From: Opitutaceae bacterium
GTDB lineage: Bacteria; Verrucomicrobiota; Verrucomicrobiia; Opitutales; Opitutaceae
Assembly: GCA_016794625.1 (NCBI GenBank)
Contig: JAEUGY010000070.1
Location: 1 to 64,000, forward strand
Length of the DNA: 64,000 bases
Direction of reading: 5' to 3'
Shown: positions 36,962 through 49,564 of the stretch, in pieces
Layout: every line of letters starts with the position of its first letter
Position numbering within the stretch: the first letter of the stretch is position 1
Made by a program: the position numbers and the translations under genes
Notes under the pieces: generated by a model
Databases searched by the model: none
What the model saw: only the letters and a program-made list of their open reading frames with translations
What the model was told of the DNA's origin: nothing

Positions 36962-38740
36962 GTGGCTGTGACGCCTTCCTCACCTCCCTTTGCTCCCGCG
37001 GTGCGCTCCGTGCTGGTGTTCGCCTGGCTGGTGATTCTTGGAGGAAAACTGGCGACCATCGGCGCGTTCGGTACCGATCTGCCGTATTGGGACCAGTGGG
37101 CCAAGGAAGGGGAGCACATCCTGATGCCCTGGTTCCGCGGTCAGAGTTTTCTGACGGGCCTCGTTTCGCCGCACAATGAACATCGCATTGTCCCGACCCT
37201 CCTCCTCAATCTCGGGCTGGTGGTCGGGGGCGGCCAATGGGACGCCCGGGTGCAGTGCATCGCGAGCGCAGCCGTCCACGCCACCCTGCTGATCGGCATT
37301 GTCGGCTGGGCGTGGCGGCGGGTGGGCCGACATTTTGGGCTGGCCGCCCTCGGTTTGGCGGTGTTGATCGGCGCGTTTCCGATCGCGTGGGACAATGTCC
37401 TCGGTGGATTTCAATCCCAGTACTACTTTCTGGCGGGAGCGTCGCTGCTGGCGATGGAGCGCCTATTGTCGGCGCCGGTCGCCCGGTGGGGCTGGTGGGT
37501 GGGTCTCGCCTCCGGCCTGGTTTCGCTGGTGTGCATGGGATCCGGATTGCTGGTGGCAGTCCCTGTCCTCCTGGTCGTCCTGCTCCGGGCGGTGCGGCGT
37601 GAACCGCGCGGGCGCGACCACGTCGCCACGTTTCTGGCGGCCGCGCTGGTCCTTGGCGTGGGCATCTGGCTGCATGCAGCCGCACCGTGGCATGCCACGT
37701 TGCGGGCCAAAGGAGTCGCGGATTTTGTGCTCTACGTCCTCCGGAGCATGGCCTGGCCGGTGCCGGGAGTGATGGCGTTCGCACTGCTCGTGTGGGGCCC
37801 GTGGGTGACCCTGACAGTGCGGCGGATCCTGGGACACCGGTCGCCGGGTGACGACGCCCTGATCGCCGCCGGGCTTTGGGTTCTGCTGCAGTTCGCGGCC
37901 GTCGCGTATTCGCGGGCCGGCGGTTCGACTCATCCCGCCGCGCGCTACGGCGACATCTCCTCGCTCGGGCTGCTGTTTGGATTCCTTTCCCTGGTCTCCG
38001 TGGCGACCGCCTGGCCCGCGACGACACGGCGCGTGACCGCGTGGGTGACAGGAGTCTGCGCGGTGGCGGCACTGGTGGCCGCGGTGGTGCAGGTCTGGAA
38101 AGGAGATCTTCCCGTCCGCAAGGGTCAGTATTGGGCTTTCGAGGACGCCGTTCGGAGATTCGTCGCCGACGATAATTTTGCCGAATTTGAGAAACGCCCG
38201 TTGCCCTTTCCTTTGGCGGACTGGCTGGCGCGCATCCTTCGCGATCCAGGGATCCGGAACGCCATGCCGTCGAGCGCGGGGGTTTCCCTGGCCGGCGAGA
38301 ATCAGGTCAGTGTTCCCCGCGCCGGCGACGGACAGGCGGCGTCGCGCGTCTGGACGAGTGAGCCGCTGCGGCCGGGCGCGCCGTATTGGCGATTGGAGTT
38401 TGCGGGCACGTTTGATCCCCGGTCAGCCCATCTGACGGTGCGGGATGAAGGGGGCGCGGTGTTGCGCTCTGTGCCCTGGCCGGAAAAGGGAGTAGGCCCC
38501 CGCGGTGAAATCATGATTGCGGCGCCGTCGGTTCCGAGCCGACTCGAACTGCGCCTCGACGGCGCGGCGGACGAAGTCACGCTGGTGCTGCCGCGGGCGG
38601 TTAGCCTCGTGTCGTGGCTGGGCTGGCGCCTTGCCTCCTGGGGATGGATGATAGTCGGGCTGGCGACGGCCGGAGCGATCATCAGCGCCGTGCAAGTCGC
38701 TCGGCGCGCTCCGGACGGCGCGCCGGAAGGCGCTCGCTGA
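36962..38740 (+). CDS. Polytopic membrane protein, paralogue A (unknown, possibly GT-C)
   Basis: A 592-residue protein with roughly 9-11 hydrophobic segments, an N-terminal helix, a large conserved first loop and a soluble beta-rich C-terminal part ending in one more helix. The first loop carries WDQW..EG, PHNEHR and GQWDAR; further on come NVLGGFQSQYYFL and MGSG. The same blocks occur in order in the protein encoded at 41238-43121. An acidic first extracytoplasmic loop after TM1 is typical of GT-C glycosyltransferases, but no sequence signature proves this. The start is GTG at 36962 (or GTG at 36968). Confidence 0.6.
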   Translation: MAVTPSSPPFAPAVRSVLVFAWLVILGGKLATIGAFGTDLPYWDQWAKEGEHILMPWFRGQSFLTGLVSPHNEHRIVPTLLLNLGLVVGGGQWDARVQCIASAAVHATLLIGIVGWAWRRVGRHFGLAALGLAVLIGAFPIAWDNVLGGFQSQYYFLAGASLLAMERLLSAPVARWGWWVGLASGLVSLVCMGSGLLVAVPVLLVVLLRAVRREPRGRDHVATFLAAALVLGVGIWLHAAAPWHATLRAKGVADFVLYVLRSMAWPVPGVMAFALLVWGPWVTLTVRRILGHRSPGDDALIAAGLWVLLQFAAVAYSRAGGSTHPAARYGDISSLGLLFGFLSLVSVATAWPATTRRVTAWVTGVCAVAALVAAVVQVWKGDLPVRKGQYWAFEDAVRRFVADDNFAEFEKRPLPFPLADWLARILRDPGIRNAMPSSAGVSLAGENQVSVPRAGDGQAASRVWTSEPLRPGAPYWRLEFAGTFDPRSAHLTVRDEGGAVLRSVPWPEKGVGPRGEIMIAAPSVPSRLELRLDGAADEVTLVLPRAVSLVSWLGWRLASWGWMIVGLATAGAIISAVQVARRAPDGAPEGAR

Positions 38741-38744
38741 TCCG

Positions 38745-41186
38745 TTAGCGCAGCAAGTCGCGGAGGTCGGAGAGCGAGAGCTTGGCGGCGGCGGCGTCGC
38801 TCGCCTCGAAGACATCGGCGAGCAGGGCGCGCTTTTCTTCCTGTAGCGCGAGCACCTTTTCCTCGACCGTGCCGGAGCAGATCAACTTGTAGCTTGTCAC
38901 CACCTTCTGTTGCCCGATGCGGTGCGCACGATCCGTGGCTTGGGCCTCCGCGGCGGGATTCCACCACGGATCGAAGTGAACCACGGTGTCGGCGCCGGTC
39001 AGATTGAGTCCGGTGCCGCCGGCTTTGAGGGAGAGCAGAAAGACGGGCAGGTCGCGCTCCGACTGGAAACGATCCACTTCGGCCTGACGCTGGCGTGTCG
39101 TCATGGAACCATCGAGGTAGGCATAGGGCACCTCCTGCTGGTCCAGTTCCTGCCGCAAGAGGGCGAGCAACGAGGTGAACTGGGAGAAGACGAGCAGGCG
39201 ATGCCCATCATCCAAGGCCTCCGCGAGCAATTCACGGAAGGCTTCCAGCTTGGCCGAGTCGGCGGTCTCCGTGGAAGCATCCGCGGATGAGCCCAGGAGC
39301 CGTGGGTCGCAGCAGACCTGTCGCAACCGCAACAATTGAGTCAGCGTCGCGAGCCGCAGGGCGTTCTCGCTGGCGCCGCCCGCCTCGAGATCGAGCAGCG
39401 CTCGTTCGGTTTGCTCCTGAACCGAGCGGTAGAGTGCAGCCTGGGGAGCGGACAATTCACACCAGAGGACCTGCTCGATTTTGGAGGGCAGTTCGGGGGC
39501 GACCGCGATTTTCGTGCGCCGCAGAATATACCGGGCGGTCTGCGCACGCAGACGTTCGTCATACCAGGCCCGTTCGTCGCCCCGGGTGCCTGCGGGCACC
39601 GGGGAGAGAAAACCGGGCATGAGAAAGTCGAAGAGCGACCGCAGGTCATCGAGCGAGTTCTCCAGCGGCGTGCCCGTCAGCAGACAGCGTCCTCGACTAC
39701 GCAGCGAGCGCAGGGCCTGCGCGTTCTGGGATCGGCGGTTCTTGGCGTGTTGCGCCTCGTCGCCCACGATGCACGCAAATTCGATCGCATCGAGCCAGGT
39801 GTGGTCGCGCACGAGGGTTCCGTAGGAAGTGACGACCAGGTCGCAGGCGAGCAACGAAGCGGCTGACGCGGTGCGACCGGCCCCATGATGAACACAGACG
39901 CGCAGGTGCGGGGTGAAACGGGCGGCCTCGCGCCGCCAGTTTTCCAGGAGGGAGGCCGGGCAGACCACCAGCGCCGTACCACCGCCGTCGGCCAGCACGG
40001 AGCTGATCAAGCCAAGGGCCTGCAGCGTCTTTCCGAGTCCCATCTCGTCCGCAAGAATGCCCGCGAGCCGGTGGCGATGCAGGTGATGAAGCCACGCGAC
40101 GCCCAGTCGCTGATAGGGACGCAGCGCGCTGGAGAGTGGCTCCGCCAGCGTGACGGGAGCGAGAGCCGTGAGGGTGCGCAACGCCTCGCTCCGGGCCTTC
40201 CAGCTGGCCGGCGGTTCAAAGTGAGGGGCGACCTCGGCCAGAATGTCCTGGGCCTCGGACAGCCGGGCCGCCGGCAGCCGGTGCACCCGCCGCGCCGCCA
40301 ATCCCTGTGTCCCCGCGTCGCCCGCCAGAGCACGTTGCGCATCACTCAGCCGCTTGAGCTGGTGGGGATCAATGAGGTACACCTTGCCCTGATCCTCGAT
40401 GTAGCCCCGATTCGCCGCCACCGCGCCGCTGACCGCGGCGTCGTCCGCCCGACCGGCGCGCAGGCCGAGCGAGAGGGTAAAGCCGTCGCGGGCTTCCACC
40501 GCGTCCGCGGTCACCTCGACCGCCCGGATATGAGCGGTATTCCGTTCAAAGTTCGACGAGAACTCCGCCCGGAAATCCGCCCGCAGAAGGGAACCATGCG
40601 CGGCGAGAAAGTTCAGCACCCGGTGACGATCCCGCAGCCACCAGCGACGGTTCGAGGGCTCCAGCGCAAATCCGCTCCCTTTGAGCAGGTCATGCGCGGC
40701 TGCATACGAAGCGTGGTCCCGGGACGGCAGCGCGATTGAGAGAAAATGCTCCGATCCGTCCACCTGCAGCGGTGTGGCGACCGACACGCTGCCCTGGGTG
40801 GAACGAAGAGATGGCGCGGGGCGTGCAGCGCCCGAGGATGCGGCCGGGGCAGCGGGGGCGGCCAGTGGGGAAGGGGACGTTGCCGTCTCCAGCAGTTCAC
40901 TCACGCCTCGCAGAAGATGCCCCACCCACAGCAACGGCCGTTGCGGTTCATTGACCCAGAAAAATGCCGGCAGTCCCTTGAGATGGCCGACCAGTTCACG
41001 CAGCTGGCTGCGATTCAATTGGAGCATCAGGACCGCCGCCGGCCGGGCCCCGAAGCGTTGCAGCGCGGCCAGCGCCGGAAGCCACTGAGGTTCCGGCGGG
41101 CGCGACAGGTCGAGTTCCACCTTGATGGCGATGGCATCGCGGACGGCGGCCGAGGAAAGATTGGGAGGGAGCAGCAGCCTAAGCAT
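38745..41186 (-). CDS. SNF2-family helicase
   Basis: An 813-residue Swi2/Snf2-type ATPase, a double-strand DNA translocase of the RapA/HepA-like bacterial group. The N-terminal 350 residues are poorly conserved with an Ala/Pro-rich linker. The helicase core has ILADEMGLGKTLQALG (motif I), DEAQ box (VGDEAQHAKN), LTGTPLENSLDDLRSL, RRTK, the motif IV-V region LLVFSQFTS, SLKAGGTGLNLTGAD and DRAHRIGQ. No SWIM zinc finger is seen. It ends 4 bp from the stop of the convergent membrane-protein gene and is preceded by the paralogous membrane-protein gene. Confidence 0.92.
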   Translation of the reverse strand: MLRLLLPPNLSSAAVRDAIAIKVELDLSRPPEPQWLPALAALQRFGARPAAVLMLQLNRSQLRELVGHLKGLPAFFWVNEPQRPLLWVGHLLRGVSELLETATSPSPLAAPAAPAASSGAARPAPSLRSTQGSVSVATPLQVDGSEHFLSIALPSRDHASYAAAHDLLKGSGFALEPSNRRWWLRDRHRVLNFLAAHGSLLRADFRAEFSSNFERNTAHIRAVEVTADAVEARDGFTLSLGLRAGRADDAAVSGAVAANRGYIEDQGKVYLIDPHQLKRLSDAQRALAGDAGTQGLAARRVHRLPAARLSEAQDILAEVAPHFEPPASWKARSEALRTLTALAPVTLAEPLSSALRPYQRLGVAWLHHLHRHRLAGILADEMGLGKTLQALGLISSVLADGGGTALVVCPASLLENWRREAARFTPHLRVCVHHGAGRTASAASLLACDLVVTSYGTLVRDHTWLDAIEFACIVGDEAQHAKNRRSQNAQALRSLRSRGRCLLTGTPLENSLDDLRSLFDFLMPGFLSPVPAGTRGDERAWYDERLRAQTARYILRRTKIAVAPELPSKIEQVLWCELSAPQAALYRSVQEQTERALLDLEAGGASENALRLATLTQLLRLRQVCCDPRLLGSSADASTETADSAKLEAFRELLAEALDDGHRLLVFSQFTSLLALLRQELDQQEVPYAYLDGSMTTRQRQAEVDRFQSERDLPVFLLSLKAGGTGLNLTGADTVVHFDPWWNPAAEAQATDRAHRIGQQKVVTSYKLICSGTVEEKVLALQEEKRALLADVFEASDAAAAKLSLSDLRDLLR

Positions 41187-41237
41187 GACGGTTCGGAGAC
41201 GCAGGGACCGACGGCCGACGGCCGCCGTTCCGCGGGG

Positions 41238-43121
41238 TCACGGCGTTGAAAGGGACGCCTTCTCCCCTTCGTCCGCCGCGCCAGCGCGCGTGACTGCAGG
41301 AAGCGTGATGAGGAGGAAGCCGGCGCTGATCCACGTCAGCAGGGGAGCGTGGGAGGCCAGCCGCCAGCACCAGTAAGAACCCGAGGCCATGCCGATGGGA
41401 GCCGAGAAAGCCAGCCAACCCTTCGGATCCTCATCGCGCGCCACCACGCGGAAAGGTTCGTTGGGTGCCGCCACATAGGCGGCGCGCCATTGGTTCGGAA
41501 CGGTCTTGCTCGGTCGGACATGACCCAGGCGGCGCGTCATATCCGCCGACCAAAGTTCGAGCCGGGTCCGCTCCCGGCCGAGATCGCCCGACGTCTCGAA
41601 GACCAGATAGCCAAACTCGGGCCTGGGCTGCACCGCACTGCGCCATTCACCCGTGCCATCGGCACCGCGGATACGATCAAACGAACCCCACGTTGGCGCG
41701 AGGAGCAGGTCGGGTGTTTCCGGGGACGCACCCGGCGACTGAAAGCCCGTGCTGCGATCCTCCGCCAGCGGCATGGCGGCGCGCACGCTGGCTGGAAGCA
41801 GGTGCCGCAGTTCCGGGTGGGCAGTCCGTTCGATGAAGAGTTCGACGCTGGGATAGGGAATTTCGCCCTCCTTCAACCACGACGCGTCCTGGGTGGCCAG
41901 ATACAGTCGGGCGTGGGTCGTGCTGCGCTTGTACCACTTGCCCACCTCGATCAGATCGTAAGTGAAGAGTCCGCGGGCATGTCCGTAGAGCCCGTGTCCG
42001 ATGGCCAGGGTCCATGCGCCGATCGCCACCACCGCACCAAGCCGTGCGCGGTGGCCGAGATTCGAGCGATTGAGCAGCACCATGCCGGCGGCCAGATTGA
42101 CCAGCAAACCCGCGGTGTTTGTGTCGAAGTACCGCGAAGCCGGCCAGAGCCCGCCGGCGCCGCGGGCGTAGGCGGCGGCGAGAAACTGGACGATGACCCA
42201 ACCGCCAATCGCCACGATTACCCGCTCGCGCGGATCAAACTCCGGCCGCGACTGAATCCAGAGCACACGGACCGCCAGGATCAACCACGGGAGATACGTG
42301 AGCGCACCGAACGGCGTGAACGAGGTGACCGGCCATTGCAGCGAACGCCACAGCGTCCACCCAAACTCAGCGAAGGAATGCGCCCGCAGCGGTTCATGCG
42401 CGGTGAACTCCACGTGCAGCGCAATGCCCGCGGCCATGACGATGAGACACGCGATCAGGGTGATGGCATGACGTCGGGCGGCGCGCCAGGGCGCTCCCTC
42501 GAGGACGAGCAACGAGACGAAGACCATGCCGGCCGCGGCCGGACCTGACGCCATGCTGAAAAGGACGAGGATCAGACACAGGATGCCCAGCCACCAACCC
42601 GCCGTCAGGGCCCGGCATCTCAGGCAGCGGTCGATGCCGATAAAGGAGAGACCAAGCAGAAAGTACTGCTGCGAATGAAATCCGCCCAACGTGTTTTGCC
42701 ACGCGTGGGGAAGCGCGAAGGTCGCTACGAGTGCGAGCGCCCACAGAAGCCGTTGCCAGCGTTGCAGCAGTAGAGGGCGAACCCAGAACCATAGCGCGAC
42801 GGCAAGTGCGCTGTGCAAAGCCGAGTTCACAAAAATCTGAATGCGAGCGTCCCATTGGCCATTCACGAGCACGACGCCAAGCGCCACCAGTTTCGTCAGT
42901 ACGACGCGGTGTTCGTTGTGAGGGGCAAACAGGTCGAGGACGTGGAGCTTTCCCTGGCTCCAGGGCAGGAGCAGATTCACCCCCTCCGCGTCCCACTGAT
43001 CCCAGTTGGGCACGTCGCTACCGTAGTTTTCCACCACCCACAGTTTGGCGAAGAAAAGGGTGCAGAAGAGCGCGACTGCAAAGACAACGCGGTTGGATGA
43101 ACGGACAACGGAATGGAGCAC
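41238..43121 (-). CDS. Polytopic membrane protein, paralogue B (unknown, possibly GT-C)
   Basis: A 627-residue homologue of the protein at 36962-38740. Shared blocks in order are GSDVPNWDQWDAEG, LFAPHNEHRVV, VNGQWDARIQ, NTLGGFHSQQYFLLG, a GWW..G helix, MASG, and a C-terminal beta-rich domain after PSVELFIERTAHPELRHLLP. About ten hydrophobic segments are visible. The strictly kept polar residues in the first loop (W-D-Q-W, H-N-E-H-R) look catalytic or ligand-binding. The downstream (minus-strand) neighbour is the SNF2 helicase 51 bases away. Function unknown; a polyprenyl-linked sugar transferase is the leading guess. Confidence 0.6.
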   Translation of the reverse strand: MLHSVVRSSNRVVFAVALFCTLFFAKLWVVENYGSDVPNWDQWDAEGVNLLLPWSQGKLHVLDLFAPHNEHRVVLTKLVALGVVLVNGQWDARIQIFVNSALHSALAVALWFWVRPLLLQRWQRLLWALALVATFALPHAWQNTLGGFHSQQYFLLGLSFIGIDRCLRCRALTAGWWLGILCLILVLFSMASGPAAAGMVFVSLLVLEGAPWRAARRHAITLIACLIVMAAGIALHVEFTAHEPLRAHSFAEFGWTLWRSLQWPVTSFTPFGALTYLPWLILAVRVLWIQSRPEFDPRERVIVAIGGWVIVQFLAAAYARGAGGLWPASRYFDTNTAGLLVNLAAGMVLLNRSNLGHRARLGAVVAIGAWTLAIGHGLYGHARGLFTYDLIEVGKWYKRSTTHARLYLATQDASWLKEGEIPYPSVELFIERTAHPELRHLLPASVRAAMPLAEDRSTGFQSPGASPETPDLLLAPTWGSFDRIRGADGTGEWRSAVQPRPEFGYLVFETSGDLGRERTRLELWSADMTRRLGHVRPSKTVPNQWRAAYVAAPNEPFRVVARDEDPKGWLAFSAPIGMASGSYWCWRLASHAPLLTWISAGFLLITLPAVTRAGAADEGEKASLSTP

Positions 43122-43284: not shown

Positions 43285-44268
43285 TCAGCGCCAGGCGTGT
43301 GCGAACAGGTTGTAGTAAAGAGGCGTGCCCTCTGGGCTGCGCAGGGGATGTTCCGTGTGCAGCCCCACTTCGATGTTCGGGTAGAACGGCCGCAGTGCTT
43401 CGGCCAGACTCCAGCGCGTGAAGAAGTTCTTGTGGTCGGCCTCCAGCATGTGCCACGGCACCGCCAGGTAGCGTCGCAAGTAGGCCAGTAGTTCCGCGTT
43501 GGGCACGGAAAGAAACAGTCGGTCCGGCGCGACCCGTCGCACTTCGCGAAGAAACGCCGGCACGTCCGCGATGTGTTCCAGCACTTCGATCGCCATGGCG
43601 GCGGCGTAGGCGCCGTCGGGAAATGGGAGCGCGCCGCCCTGAACCTGGGTATGGGGCAGGCCGGCCGCAGCCATGGCCGCGCAGTCCTCCGCCTTCATCT
43701 CCGCTCCGTGCCAGCGATGGCCCAGGGCTCGGAGTTTGGAGCCGTACCAGCCCAGGCCACAGCCCACGTCGAGAATGGAAACCGGTTCCGGACCGAGGCT
43801 GCGGGCGATGAGGGCAAGGACCTCACCGCTGCCTTCGGCTTGTGAAGGTCCTGAGGTGTAGATGTGCTCGCGATGGTGCAGGGGTGGAAAGTCCTGCCGC
43901 AGCAGAATGCCGTAGTCGCTGGTTCGATGGTCGAATCCACTCCACGACAACATCCGCTCCGTTGACGCGAGTATCCGTCCCTCTCCTTTGACGAGCACCC
44001 GCAATGGCGCTTCGCCACCGAAGGGTCCGGCCGCCGCATGGGCGACAAGCGAAAACCCGCTGCGCGTACCCTCGCTCCAACCCTGTTGGAGATTCACGTC
44101 GGGGCGGACGAAGAGGTGCCGGGTTGAACCCACGCAGTGCCCGCCCACCCAGGCTTCGACGAGGATCGCCTGGTCTCCGGATCCGTCCGGCTGCAGCCAG
44201 CCTTCCACGCGAAAGCAGAGGGCATCGCAGCGCTGGCCCGCCTGGGGCGTGTCGAGACAAAGCAGCAT
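43285..44268 (-). CDS. SAM-dependent methyltransferase with N-terminal extension
   Basis: A 327-residue class I methyltransferase. The first 130 residues are a separate beta-rich region (FRVEGWLQP..., VLVKGEGRI) of unknown role. The methyltransferase domain starts near SILDVGCGLGWYGSKL (motif I), with LPFPDGAYAAAMAIEVLEHI (post-II) and FLSVPNAE. This resembles Methyltransf_11/UbiE-like enzymes and those found in glycan clusters. The substrate is unknown. It is transcribed toward the membrane-protein paralogue B, 163 bases upstream of it, which may point to a shared cell-surface role. Confidence 0.8.
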   Translation of the reverse strand: MLLCLDTPQAGQRCDALCFRVEGWLQPDGSGDQAILVEAWVGGHCVGSTRHLFVRPDVNLQQGWSEGTRSGFSLVAHAAAGPFGGEAPLRVLVKGEGRILASTERMLSWSGFDHRTSDYGILLRQDFPPLHHREHIYTSGPSQAEGSGEVLALIARSLGPEPVSILDVGCGLGWYGSKLRALGHRWHGAEMKAEDCAAMAAAGLPHTQVQGGALPFPDGAYAAAMAIEVLEHIADVPAFLREVRRVAPDRLFLSVPNAELLAYLRRYLAVPWHMLEADHKNFFTRWSLAEALRPFYPNIEVGLHTEHPLRSPEGTPLYYNLFAHAWR

Positions 44269-44656: not shown

Positions 44657-47600
44657 ATGCTTGTGAAATCTCGCGTAATCCGGGCCTTTTTCGGTCTGGC
44701 TGTTGTTCTTGTCGTCGGTCTGACCTGGCTTGCCGTCCGTCCGCTTCCCGATGCGGCGGTGACGGACACGGCCGCGTTGAGCCGCGCCGCGACGGCACCG
44801 AAAGTCGTCGATGCGAGACAGGATGCCGCGACAAAACCGGCCGGAACGGAGGCGGGGCGGGCGTCGAAGGGCAGGAGTGAGCTCGCGGCGGGGGCTGCGC
44901 AGGTCCTGGGACATCGGTTTCCTGAGGGACGCGTGCGCGACGAGCGGCTGGAGGTCGTGTCCGCTGGTCGGAAACGTTGGATACAGTGGATCGAAACCCC
45001 GGGAGCGTTTCCGCAGGTGCGGGCCGAGTTGACGTTCGAGTCGGACGACAAAGGGCTTCGCCTCGTGGAGGAACACTACGTCCTGGCTGATAGCGTCCTG
45101 GTCGAGCGACCCCGCTCGGTTTCGCCCTCCGAGTTCGCTGCACGCTTGCGCGGCCTCGGGCTGCGGGCCGGACCCCAATACGATTTTTCGCCGGCGGTCC
45201 GGGTGTTTGTACCCGATCCGCTCCACCTCGATTCGGTCCCTGAGGCCTTGGGTCGCCTCGGGTCGCAGGAACCGGGCTGGAAGGCCACGCCCGATCCGCT
45301 GGCGTTCTCCAGTGCCACGCCGAACGATTTTGATTCCCGGGAATTGTGGGCCCTTGCCCGGATCAATGCTCCATCGGCCTGGGAGGTGAACACCGGCTCT
45401 AACACCGTGGTCGTGGCCATCATTGATTCCGGGTTGAGTCGGCAGCACCCGGATCTCTCCTCCAACGTCTGGCAGAATCCCGCCGAGCTCGCGAACGGCC
45501 TGGACGACGACAGCAACGGTCTGGTCGATGATCTCTACGGCTGGGATTTCGCCGGGAATGACAATGATCCGGCGGATCAGGAAAGCCACGGCACCCATGT
45601 GGCGGGCATCATCGGTGCGACGGGCAACAACGGGGTTGGTGTCACGGGCGTCAATTGGCGGGTCCGCCTGATGGGTCTGCGCACGGGCGACCAGTCGCTC
45701 TCCACGAGCGCAGTGATCCAGGCGACCGACTATGCGACCGGGCAGAAGCTGAAAGGCGTGCCCGTCGTCGTGATCAACAACTCCTACACTTCGACCAGTT
45801 TCAACACCCTGCAGCGCGACTCGATTCAGCGGGCGAGAGACGCCGACATCCTCTTTGTGGCCGCCTCGGGCAACGATGCCCGGAGCCTGGACCAAAGCGG
45901 TTTGTTGTATCCCATCGGATACGCCGTGAGCAATCTGGTGGGGGTCGCTTCGACCGACCTGGGTGACACCTTGTCCGACTTTTCCAACTGGGGGACGAGC
46001 TCCGTGCACCTCGCGGCTCCAGGTTCGGCGGTGCTCTCCACCGTCCCGGCCGACCGCTATGGAGTGAAGGATGGTACCTCGATGGCGGCCCCGCTCGTCA
46101 CCGGTGCGCTGGCCCTCCTGCGGGCGGCCGAGCCGACGCTCGGCGCCCAGCAGCTGAAAAACCGCCTGCTCACCACGGTCCAGGTGCTGGATTCGCTCAC
46201 CGGCCGGGTGGCGACGGGAGGACGCCTCGATCTGCAGCGCATGGTCAATCCCTCCGGCAGCCTGCCCCGGATCACCCCGATCGCACCGACGGCCGAGATC
46301 TATGGACTGGAGACGACGTCGCAGTCCGTGATCCTTTCCGTCCGCGGCTCCCGCTGGGTCAACGGCATTGAGCAGGCGGAGATTCCCGTCACTTGGTCAA
46401 AGGTCTCCGGACCCGGCAATGTCACGTTCGTCGACGCCGGCGTCAACCGGGTCACCACCACTTTTTCCGCGACCGGACTCTATCGCATACGCGCATCCGC
46501 GTCGGCAGGGGGCGTGACTGCCACCCTCGATCGAAGCGTGGTGGTGGGATCTGTGTCCGTGCCGGCGACCAACCTGCTCGGCCGCTGGACCTTTGGGGAA
46601 ACCTCGGGTCCCGTGCTCGATTCGTCAGGGCAGGGCCGGAATGGCGTGCTGTTGGATGGGCCGACCCGGGACGCGGGGCCTTACACGCTGCCGGGATTGC
46701 GGTTCAATGGCACGCTGTCGGCCGTGCAATTCTCCGCCCCCGCACCGGCGCAGGTGACCCTGGCGGGCTGGATCCACATGGATACGGCGGGCAACAGCAT
46801 TTTCCCCCGCGTCATCAATACGCCGGCTTACTACCTCTTTGTTGGACGGGATGGCGCCTCCGGTCTGGACGGCAACGCGGGCACGGTCAAATTCCTCGCG
46901 AACTGGACGACCACCGACGGCGTCTGGCACACGCCGCCCGGGCTGATTGGCAACGGCTCGTGGTATCACGTCGCCGCCAGCTATGACAGTACGCGGGGCA
47001 GCCGCGAGCTGCCGCGACTTTACCTCAACGGGCGCGAGCTGGAGGTCGGGGCGCAGACGCCGGCGGCCGGCGCGCCGGATCTGGCCACGGGAAACGGCTA
47101 CCTCGGAAACAACGAGGAACGGACGCGGGCCCTGGCCGGACGGCTCGCCGATTCGCGCATTTACGGCCGTGTGCTGGCTTCCGAGGAGATCGCCTATCTG
47201 GCGCGCGAGTCGGTGATGTCGGATCTTCGAAACTGGGAAGTGGTGGTGCAAAGTGCGACGCCCACGACTGCGGTGGTCGGACTACGGCGGGCGGACGGGC
47301 GCGTGCCGGGTTCCACGCTTAGCGCCGTGTGGCAGCAACTCACCGGTCCCGGCTCACCCGCGATCGCTTCGACCCAAGGAACCCAGGCCACGCTCGGATT
47401 CACCGAGGCCGGTTCGCACACGGTCACCTTTGATCTCTATGACGACGGGGTCATGCTTCGCCGTCAGGTCACCCTCGCCCTGCCTGGCGTGGTCGCGCCG
47501 CCCGTTGCGCCCGGATTTGTGCGCGCCCCGGCCAGCCGGACGGCGGCCGCGGGTTCAACGATCACCCTGGAGGTTGAAGCCTCGGGAACGCCGCCTCTCA

Positions 47601-49564
47601 CTTATCAGTGGCTCTTCAATGGCGTGCCGATCAACGGACAGACCCTGTCGCAACTGGTGCTGGCGGCCGTGCGGACCGGGGATTCCGGGAATTACTCAGT
47701 CCGGGTGACCAACGCAGCAGGCACGGCGACCAGTCCGGAGGCCACGCTGACCGTCCTGGACCCGCCCAGCATTGTCACCCAGCCGCAAGGGCAGTTGGTG
47801 GCCGCCGGTTCGCGGGTGGAGCTGCGCGTGGTGGCGGCGGGGAGTCCGACCCTGCTGTACCAGTGGCAGCGGGCGGGCACGCCCATCCAGGGAGCCACGG
47901 GCCCGACCTATATTCTGGAGAACATCACCTCGTCACAGACGGGCAACTACTCCGTCGTGGTGACCAATTCGGTCGGCTCCGTCACCAGCACCGCTGCGCT
48001 GGTGGAGGTCCTGGAGCCGCCGGCGATTGTGTCCCAGCCGGCCTCCCAGACCGTGGTGGCGGGAAGAACCATTGTGCTCGACGTGTCCGTCTCGGGCACG
48101 GTTCCGTACACCTTCGCGTGGTTCAAGAACGGCGTTTTGATGCCCAATGAAGTCCTGCCGACGCTCCGTTTCACCGTGGTGAAACTTGAGGACGCGGCCA
48201 CGTACACCTTCCGGGTGAGCAATGCGGTCGGCACCGCCACCACCACACCCATTGTGCTAACCGTGGTTTCGCCTCCCATGATTGTCCGGCAGCCCGCGAC
48301 GCAGGCGGTGGCTCTCGGACGCCCGGCGACATTCTCGGTGGAGGTCACCGGCACCGCCCCAATGACGTATCAGTGGCAGCGCAACTCGGCCAATCTTCCC
48401 GGCGAGACGGGTCCGCAGCTGACGATCCCACGCGTCGGAACTGAGGATGTGGGCAGCTACACGGTGGTCATCAGCAACGCGATCGATTCCGTGCGCAGTG
48501 CCGCCGCGTACCTCGACATCGTACCGTTGCCGACGATCAGTCAGCAACCCGTGAGCACCACCGCTGCCCTCGGAAGTTCGGTGACCCTGGAGGTCGGTTC
48601 CAGCGACGCCCCGGGCTCTATTTTCTACCGTTGGTGGCACAATGGCACCCCGGTCCCCAATTCCAACAGCGCGCGGCTCGTGCTGCCCACGTTGGGGGTC
48701 GCCCAGGCGGGCGTTTACATCGCCGAGCTGACCAACAGCGGAGGAACCCGCATGAGCCGTCCTGCCGTGGTCGGCCTCGCGCTCACCACCAAACTCGCCG
48801 GTGCCGTCGGCACCCGTCCCGAGTGGCAGAACATCGCTCATCCCAACGGGAACGCCTACGATCAGTTCCTGCTCGAAGGTACGGCCGGGGCGCTCACGGC
48901 CGATCCCGGCCAGATTTCGCGCATGTCCTTCATCGATCCGCAGGGGGACATCGTGCAGGTTGAGCTCGCGGGCAAGGGAACGCTGACGGTTCTCCTCGAG
49001 GCCGCGACCGGACCGGCCACGCCGACCCTTTACCAGCAGCCCGGGGTGCTCTACATGCAGGGACAGGCGACCTTGATCCTGGCGGATACGGACGAAACGA
49101 CCCATATGTCGGCCTACTCGGTCGGTCCCGCCAATAACCCCGGCGCGGTGCGCCCGGACGTCACCTACGAGGGTTGGGCGTCCATCCGGGCCCTCGGTGT
49201 GCACAGCACCACCGGACGCGTGAACGGCCTGCGTCTGGGCAATGCGCGCTTTGAAGCCTCGTCGGGTGCGACCGGTCTCTGGGCGCAGGGTGTCCGGGCC
49301 GAGACAGTGTTTCTCAGTGACATTGCCGCGTTCACCTCCGCGGTTCCCGTGCTGGCGATTTCCCTGGAGACGGAAGTCGGAATCACGGGTGGCAGCCTCT
49401 TGCAGCCCAACGGCCAGCCCATCGTTGTCGATGGGGTCAAGGGCATCCGGTTGCGCGAAGGGGCGGCGTCGACCGGGCAGCGGGTCGGCCCGAAGGTGCT
49501 GCAGGGGCGGCTCGAGCGGAACGGCGTCGACGTATCCAGCATTCTCTTGCTGCCATCATCCTGA
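44657..49564 (+). CDS. Secreted subtilisin-like protease with LamG and Ig-like repeats
   Basis: A 1635-residue exported multidomain protein. In order: a signal anchor (residues 9-26); a propeptide-like region to about 225; an S8 protease domain with intact triad D257 (IIDSGLS), H311 (SHGTHVAG) and S475 (DGTSMAAPLVTG); a beta-sandwich linker; a LamG/concanavalin-like domain at about 638-855; five Ig-like repeats at about 945-1380, each with a YQW...G.Y.V.V.N pattern; and a roughly 250-residue C-terminal domain of unknown type. The combination suggests surface degradation or adhesion. Start ATG 44657. A similar Ig-plus-tail layout is common in Opitutaceae surface proteins (from memory). Confidence 0.9.
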   Translation: MLVKSRVIRAFFGLAVVLVVGLTWLAVRPLPDAAVTDTAALSRAATAPKVVDARQDAATKPAGTEAGRASKGRSELAAGAAQVLGHRFPEGRVRDERLEVVSAGRKRWIQWIETPGAFPQVRAELTFESDDKGLRLVEEHYVLADSVLVERPRSVSPSEFAARLRGLGLRAGPQYDFSPAVRVFVPDPLHLDSVPEALGRLGSQEPGWKATPDPLAFSSATPNDFDSRELWALARINAPSAWEVNTGSNTVVVAIIDSGLSRQHPDLSSNVWQNPAELANGLDDDSNGLVDDLYGWDFAGNDNDPADQESHGTHVAGIIGATGNNGVGVTGVNWRVRLMGLRTGDQSLSTSAVIQATDYATGQKLKGVPVVVINNSYTSTSFNTLQRDSIQRARDADILFVAASGNDARSLDQSGLLYPIGYAVSNLVGVASTDLGDTLSDFSNWGTSSVHLAAPGSAVLSTVPADRYGVKDGTSMAAPLVTGALALLRAAEPTLGAQQLKNRLLTTVQVLDSLTGRVATGGRLDLQRMVNPSGSLPRITPIAPTAEIYGLETTSQSVILSVRGSRWVNGIEQAEIPVTWSKVSGPGNVTFVDAGVNRVTTTFSATGLYRIRASASAGGVTATLDRSVVVGSVSVPATNLLGRWTFGETSGPVLDSSGQGRNGVLLDGPTRDAGPYTLPGLRFNGTLSAVQFSAPAPAQVTLAGWIHMDTAGNSIFPRVINTPAYYLFVGRDGASGLDGNAGTVKFLANWTTTDGVWHTPPGLIGNGSWYHVAASYDSTRGSRELPRLYLNGRELEVGAQTPAAGAPDLATGNGYLGNNEERTRALAGRLADSRIYGRVLASEEIAYLARESVMSDLRNWEVVVQSATPTTAVVGLRRADGRVPGSTLSAVWQQLTGPGSPAIASTQGTQATLGFTEAGSHTVTFDLYDDGVMLRRQVTLALPGVVAPPVAPGFVRAPASRTAAAGSTITLEVEASGTPPLTYQWLFNGVPINGQTLSQLVLAAVRTGDSGNYSVRVTNAAGTATSPEATLTVLDPPSIVTQPQGQLVAAGSRVELRVVAAGSPTLLYQWQRAGTPIQGATGPTYILENITSSQTGNYSVVVTNSVGSVTSTAALVEVLEPPAIVSQPASQTVVAGRTIVLDVSVSGTVPYTFAWFKNGVLMPNEVLPTLRFTVVKLEDAATYTFRVSNAVGTATTTPIVLTVVSPPMIVRQPATQAVALGRPATFSVEVTGTAPMTYQWQRNSANLPGETGPQLTIPRVGTEDVGSYTVVISNAIDSVRSAAAYLDIVPLPTISQQPVSTTAALGSSVTLEVGSSDAPGSIFYRWWHNGTPVPNSNSARLVLPTLGVAQAGVYIAELTNSGGTRMSRPAVVGLALTTKLAGAVGTRPEWQNIAHPNGNAYDQFLLEGTAGALTADPGQISRMSFIDPQGDIVQVELAGKGTLTVLLEAATGPATPTLYQQPGVLYMQGQATLILADTDETTHMSAYSVGPANNPGAVRPDVTYEGWASIRALGVHSTTGRVNGLRLGNARFEASSGATGLWAQGVRAETVFLSDIAAFTSAVPVLAISLETEVGITGGSLLQPNGQPIVVDGVKGIRLREGAASTGQRVGPKVLQGRLERNGVDVSSILLLPSS

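Follow-up and report, generated by a model that had tools for sequence, protein, structure and literature searches.

The window analysed here, a 64,000-nucleotide stretch of contig JAEUGY010000070.1 from an Opitutaceae bacterium, carries two genes for large membrane proteins, at 41238-43121 and 36962-38740, hereafter proteins A and B. An earlier note, made by reading this DNA alone, had described them as two full-length paralogues. The reading frames are indeed open along their whole length, and BLASTP aligned the two proteins over 498 residues with 32% identity and 47% positives (E 1e-57). As that note had stated, four sequence blocks follow one another in the same order in both proteins: WDQW (residues 40-43 in A and 43-46 in B), PHNEHR (67-72 and 70-75), GQWDAR (88-93 and 91-96) and LGGF[QH]SQ[YQ]YFL (145-155 and 147-157). 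It had also placed a helicase gene between the two genes and a methyltransferase gene close by, and the profile matches agree (Table 1). The genome encodes exactly these two copies of the family and no third. Very probably both belong to an unnamed family of GT-C glycosyltransferases, with a predicted activity of adding a sugar carried by polyprenyl phosphate to a cell-surface polysaccharide.

The family is absent from the profile libraries searched. With hmmscan, zero families of Pfam, NCBIfam or PHROG matched either window protein; for 24 family members, Pfam and NCBIfam gave no match below E of about 0.02, and the Pfam PMT families (PF02366, PF13231) none at E <= 1. To call the family unrecognised was thus correct for these three libraries, of which PHROG was tried with the window pair only. 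Our literature searches found no paper on it, and the plasmid and phage collections contained no member. The family was present in 22 of 57 near relatives of the window's genome and in 25 of 288 genomes sampled across Verrucomicrobiota. A scan of one genome per species yielded 157 encoding stretches, and the analysis went on with the best 79 loci; as its query consisted of the ten closest members, the scan is biased to carriers of WDQW and PHNEHR. Most of these loci belong to Opitutaceae and other Verrucomicrobiota, and the distribution extends over several phyla, with members in Pseudomonadota (Thiomargarita, Rhodopseudomonas, Ancylobacter, Devosia, Luteibacter, Stenotrophomonas), Chlorobiota, Geobacterales and one record titled Deltaproteobacteria. 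The family is rare in Gammaproteobacteria (5/229, including weak matches) and in Alphaproteobacteria (5/385, four of the five being remote relatives).

Predicted fold and active site

AlphaFold2 models built with 71 family sequences reached a predicted local distance difference test (pLDDT) score of 94.6 for protein A and 93.6 for protein B, with a predicted template modelling (pTM) score of 0.93 in both cases. Foldseek searches of the PDB placed EmbC first for both proteins (E 2.7e-8 for A and 1.2e-6 for B), with other GT-C enzymes among the subsequent matches. The VIA-align lists of both proteins contained the oligosaccharyltransferases (OST/AglB, STT3, PglB), Pmt, ALG3/ALG12, AftB, AftA, ArnT and EmbB/C, and no transporter. 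Membrane-core scores ranged over Z 9-16, mostly 10-16, the best covering 280-390 residues at Z 12-16, and the rows that aligned the membrane core at length were GT-C enzymes or the glycosylphosphatidylinositol (GPI) transamidase. Both models show a core of multiple transmembrane (TM) helices with juxtamembrane helices between TM1 and TM2, the arrangement of GT-CA enzymes. Lys and Arg are almost nil at residues 34-39, 136-149 and 186-196 and numerous at 112-123 and 204-222 (A numbering, used below unless stated), and this distribution places the loop with the conserved Asp outside. The proposal that the pair are GT-C-like enzymes was therefore sustained, as both high-confidence models match such enzymes and an invariant Asp is found where the helix following TM1 begins. 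Among the GT-C families that the note had named for comparison, GT39/PMT gave no profile match; the closest architecture is that of EmbC (GT53).

The earlier note had also spoken of similar beta-rich C-terminal domains. They are beta-rich in both proteins but share no more than 20% identity, and only that of A has a specific match: over 130 residues it superimposed on the EmbC domain 3pty with Z 12.4, a root-mean-square deviation (rmsd) of 2.7 A and 22% identity, whereas the runner-up among carbohydrate-binding modules scored Z 8.4. The authors of 3pty reported no structural neighbour of the EmbC C-terminal domain above Z 6.9 (PMC3044687). The domain of B is shorter and gave general beta-sandwich matches only, at Z of about 8; 3pty was not in its VIA list.

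Asp41, Asn69, Glu70, His71, Asn143, Arg320, Arg330 and Tyr331 are invariant in all 71 sequences, whereas Asp36, near Asp41, is not conserved. TM1 lies within residues 2-33, and in the model Asp41 is residue two of the helix after it. GT-CA enzymes are all reported to keep their catalytic Asp at the tip of juxtamembrane helix 1, and in AftB two Arg residues hold the donor phosphate (PMC12041299). The invariant Asp (Asp41 in A, Asp44 in B) occupies this position in the models and is thus the predicted catalytic residue. The equivalent loop of EmbB contributes D285 and E313, which flank the donor sugar, while the phosphate is held by R495 (PMC7305291). Asp41 and Glu70 lie 29 residues apart, nearly the same distance as between D285 and E313 (28 residues), and by analogy we infer that the two pairs correspond. 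The polar residues had been described as clustering in the first outer loop; this holds for WDQW and PHNEHR, but not for GQWDAR, which lies at the start of the next helix, nor for LGGF.SQ, which belongs to the second outer loop. Of note, an alphaproteobacterial locus (L183:5964-9435) holds two adjacent remote relatives, one of them with EEW in place of the family DQW, and there the usual catalytic Asp may be a Glu.

We propose that both enzymes would reside in the cytoplasmic membrane, where they would pick up the sugar from its polyprenyl-phosphate carrier at the outer face and transfer it to a polysaccharide of the cell surface, outside the cytoplasm. From its place at the tip of juxtamembrane helix 1, Asp41 (Asp44 in B) would activate the acceptor hydroxyl, while Asn69-Glu70-His71 of the same loop may bind the donor sugar, and Arg320 together with Arg330-Tyr331 may hold the lipid phosphate. 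The C-terminal beta-sandwich would hold the acceptor glycan, as the EmbC domain does.

Several points weigh against this proposal. A shared GT-C fold does not prove catalysis, and the whole-chain superposition on EmbB/C is loose, with an rmsd of 11-14 A across domains. When PDB sequences were searched with a profile of the whole family or of the C-terminal domain alone, no link to solved GT-C chains emerged; the only match under E 1, a photosystem fragment (E 0.008), was judged to be a chance hit. Homology, predicted fold, conserved residues, gene neighbourhood and the A/B fusions described below are observations, from which catalysis, donor, acceptor and A-B cooperation are to be told apart as inferred. 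The window's genome, 95% complete, lacks DprE1 (it has only general FAD oxidases, best E 1.2e-13), a UbiA-type synthase (no NF008978 match) and GtrA, and its candidates for making the donor are general GT2 genes only (best E 3.5e-13), none of them in the window. Even so, the assignment as GT-C glycosyltransferases of a surface glycan is well supported.

Table 1. Genes, domains and predicted active-site elements of the pair in the window
Feature	Position	Strand	Basis
Subfamily B gene, GT-C membrane core and C-terminal beta-sandwich	36962..38740	+	open reading frame, GTG start, 592 residues
Asp44 codon (WDQW), predicted catalytic base, tip of juxtamembrane helix 1 (44-58), protein B	37091..37093	+	invariant 71/71
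HNEHR motif (71-75), first outer loop, protein B	37172..37186	+	N72, E73, H74 invariant
Arg318 ... Arg328-Tyr329, predicted donor-phosphate/sugar site, protein B	37913..37948	+	invariant; role by analogy (PMC12041299, PMC11127046)
C-terminal beta-sandwich, residues 440-548 of protein B	38279..38605	+	AlphaFold2
SNF2 helicase gene, between the A and B genes	38745-41186	-	PF00176 E 1.6e-57
Subfamily A gene, GT-C membrane core and EmbC-like C-terminal carbohydrate-binding domain	41238..43121	-	open reading frame, GTG start, 627 residues
C-terminal domain, EmbC-like, residues 447-579 of protein A	41385..41783	-	VIA
Arg320 ... Arg330-Tyr331, predicted donor-phosphate/sugar site, protein A	42129..42164	-	three residues invariant 71/71
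HNEHR motif (68-72), first outer loop, protein A	42906..42920	-	N69, E70, H71 invariant 71/71
Asp41 codon, predicted catalytic base, tip of juxtamembrane helix 1 (40-55), protein A	42999..43001	-	invariant 71/71
S-adenosylmethionine (SAM) methyltransferase gene with N-terminal domain of ~150 residues, conserved partner upstream of subfamily A	43285..44268	-	PF13489 E 3.7e-15

Gene neighbourhood and the sugar donor

A common order in Opitutaceae starts with a GT2-containing multi-domain glycosyltransferase and a methyltransferase, continues with the family gene and ends with a large membrane protein and a DPM-type GT2. The multi-domain glycosyltransferase was found near the family gene in 37 loci, and 24 of the 72 loci have a methyltransferase homologue near it (27 of 28 cases on the same strand); the DPM-type GT2 lies downstream in 19 loci, mostly on the same strand, and GMD-like sugar epimerases are nearby in 10. 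In the window the methyltransferase gene directly precedes the A gene, sharing its strand, and encodes a product 50% identical to the copy of locus L099. The N-terminal domain of about 150 residues in this protein and its homologues of the 24 loci has no Pfam match; a sugar-binding module is a possibility. The large downstream protein of Opitutaceae has about 1,050-1,110 residues and about 14 predicted TM helices (L107:9811-13041, L088:11656-14814, L099:9676-13017), and its L107 copy is likewise without a Pfam match. The SNF2 helicase gene is 51 bp from the A gene and 4 bp from the B gene; it was set aside as a functional partner because the window and the congener locus L062 are the only loci, among those seen, in which it separates A from B. 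Further along the window (44657-49564) there is an S8 subtilase of 1,635 residues with a laminin-G-like domain and several immunoglobulin-like repeats.

These neighbours are consistent with a GtrB-type system in Opitutaceae, in which a hexose, loaded onto undecaprenyl phosphate by the DPM-like GT2, would be added to an O-antigen-like polysaccharide by the family enzyme. To this donor, suggested by the 19 downstream GT2 genes accompanied by the multi-domain glycosyltransferase and the methyltransferase, and by the 10 loci with GMD-like epimerases, we give somewhat less than an even chance, as the GT2 homologues of the window's genome are of the general kind mentioned above and GtrA is missing.

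Outside Verrucomicrobiota, many members have another neighbourhood, with DprE1, DprE2 and UbiA genes of the polyprenyl-phosphate-arabinofuranose pathway. In several Pseudomonadota and one Chlorobiota locus, the family gene is accompanied by genes for DprE1, DprE2, a UbiA-HAD polyprenyl-phosphate phosphoribosyltransferase, GtrA, an NAD-dependent epimerase and a PRK07233-type flavoprotein. The models matching genes beside these non-verrucomicrobial members include those of DprE1 (NF053785, E 6.7e-94), DprE2 (NF053786, E 5e-54) and decaprenyl-phosphate phosphoribosyltransferase (NF008978, E 3e-44). Several or all genes of this DPA set (UbiA-type synthase, DprE1/DprE2 and flippase) lie near the members of L116, L127, L137, L138, L139, L140 and L182, but not every non-verrucomicrobial family locus has the set. 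The epimerase and the flavoprotein (NF005560, E 7e-156 in L140) recur by DprE1/DprE2, as in L134:499-1488, L140:3533-4474 and L127:12691-13707. In a check in which loci were not picked by eye, 385 alphaproteobacterial genomes were searched for the family and for DprE1; leaving out the centre genome (384 remaining), DprE1 was present in 3 of 4 family-positive and 50 of 380 other genomes (Fisher p 0.009), although this is a small count and the four family-positive cases are without exception remote relatives. Two of the genomes, G949 and G920, carry DprE1 and the family gene on one contig, a few kb apart, and in G949 genes for UbiA-HAD, DprE1, AmOx and GtrA form one cluster with the family gene. 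It is likely that the family acts as a pentofuranosyltransferase in DPA-type loci, and the donor in Pseudomonadota and Chlorobiota is probably a polyprenyl-phosphate-pentofuranose; loci with the full DPA pathway are ready candidates for new pentofuranose glycans. The DPA cluster of L116, however, also encodes a PMT_2-type membrane protein (E 2.7e-6), a candidate for the arabinosyltransferase, and other such clusters hold further multi-TM proteins, so that even there the enzyme using the pentose donor is not certain.

Whether the family is a pentofuranosyltransferase everywhere, the window's organism included, is a different matter. Such an enzyme would use an arabinofuranose, ribofuranose or xylofuranose donor on polyprenyl phosphate, like Emb/Aft and GT136, and EmbC as the closest architecture and C-terminal domain, the DPA genes beside non-verrucomicrobial members and the alphaproteobacterial co-occurrence, with the linkage in G949 and G920, all speak for it. 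We nevertheless regard it as rather unlikely. True DprE1 was found in none of the 22 family-positive relatives and in 4 of the 35 family-negative ones (57 relatives; p 0.15, not significant), the window's genome has no UbiA-type synthase, and Verrucomicrobiota and Geobacterales members have a DPM-type GT2 nearby instead of the DprE1 set. The idea that the DprE1/DprE2/UbiA context fixes the donor for the whole family was given up for the window's organism, whose genome lacks both DprE1 and the synthase.

Subfamilies A and B as probable partners

In a maximum-likelihood tree of the membrane core, clade A (protein A, 35 rows) stands apart from clade B (protein B, 8 rows; SH-aLRT support 100). Clade B also holds the second halves of the double-length proteins of L086, L088, L096 and L107 and the second tandem gene of L073, while the first halves or genes of L073, L086, L088 and L096, which are those present in the tree, fall into clade A. 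This placement implies that the window pair derives from an old duplication. The fusions, found in other Opitutaceae, are single polypeptides of about 1,240-1,390 residues in which both GT-C cores are complete; A and B keep the same relative orientation in the window and the congener L062, where the helicase gene splits them. Each of the 8 B rows in the tree shares its locus with an A-type partner or with the C-terminal domain of such a partner. Because other Opitutaceae encode both as one double-length protein, and considering this co-occurrence, A and B are probably partner subfamilies that act together on the same glycan, and the fused double enzymes offer a simple route to study why GT-C enzymes pair.

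The constant company of A, the shorter and diverged C-terminal domain of B and the residue at A position 44, which is Ala, Gly or Glu in B, could also mean that one copy, most likely B, is catalytically silent and serves as a scaffold positioning the acceptor in the A-B pair; this is improbable, since B retains every invariant residue of the predicted active site. Large polytopic membrane proteins of glycan loci often are transporters, flippases or O-antigen polymerases or ligases, but for such a role without a GT-C mechanism we see hardly any room, as GT-C topology is predicted, the models match GT-C enzymes throughout, transporters appeared only as weak Foldseek hits (probability 0.2 or less), Pfam profiles of transporters, Wzx, Wzy or ligases gave no match, and no known family, transporter or O-antigen, claimed the proteins.

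Comparison with known GT-C systems

Like EmbA, EmbB and EmbC (CAZy GT53, PF04602), the proteins described here combine a GT-C membrane core with an extracytoplasmic carbohydrate-binding domain behind it, with EmbC as the closest Foldseek match of both proteins and 3pty as the best match of the C-terminal domain of A. Emb proteins work as dimers, including EmbA-EmbB; here, A and B come as paired genes or as fusions. On the other hand, PF04602 had no match in the window's genome at E <= 10, under conditions in which the C. glutamicum control matched, and hmmscan of family members was also negative. Model residues 7-579 align to EmbC 248-947, the N-terminal extracytoplasmic domain of Emb being absent. 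Because of these two differences we do not file the family under GT53, although it may work like it. In addition, the family is not actinobacterial, and the Emb proteins were described as lacking overall similarity beyond mycobacteria and related genera (PMC7305291). That Emb-like, arabinan-type glycosylation extends beyond these groups into several Gram-negative phyla, with the Opitutaceae pair or double enzyme building a pentofuranose polymer or side chain from a donor made without DprE1, is a speculative idea that we consider a long shot. In any case, the Emb enzymes, which are ethambutol targets (EmbC being a tuberculosis drug target), gain structural look-alikes in Gram-negative bacteria.

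GT136, the family of the Citrobacter youngae pentofuranosyltransferase ORF12 of three-component systems, shares the multi-TM GT-C core and the C-terminal carbohydrate-binding domain. In ORF12, D31 after TM1, E34, H106 and R349 are essential and Y350 is important (PMC11127046). The Asp after TM1 and the adjacent Arg-Tyr pair have counterparts here (D31 and R349-Y350 vs D41 and R330-Y331), whereas Glu34 and His106 lack clear ones, as judged by spacing. DprE1/E2 homologues are found in the arabinofuranose systems, as near our DPA-type members, but ORF12 pairs with a MATE flippase, while several DPA-type family loci have GtrA. GT136, compared by its published description only, may prove to be related, which would lower the novelty of the family.

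AftB (GT89), AftA (GT85) and ArnT (GT83) share the GT-CA core, with Z 14.5, 11.4 and 12.6 to the model of A, but there is no sequence-profile match to the solved chains, and the C-terminal domain matched EmbC instead. The oligosaccharyltransferases (STT3, AglB, PglB) and Pmt gave the highest membrane-core scores in VIA (Z 13-16); they have other soluble domains, the family has no Pfam PMT match, and its genes lie among those for surface glycans, not protein glycosylation. In summary, our work places an unannotated membrane family of several phyla among the GT-C glycosyltransferases and names candidate residues for its function. The careful statement is that this is a new family of the GT-C kind, set apart from GT53 and PMT by profiles.

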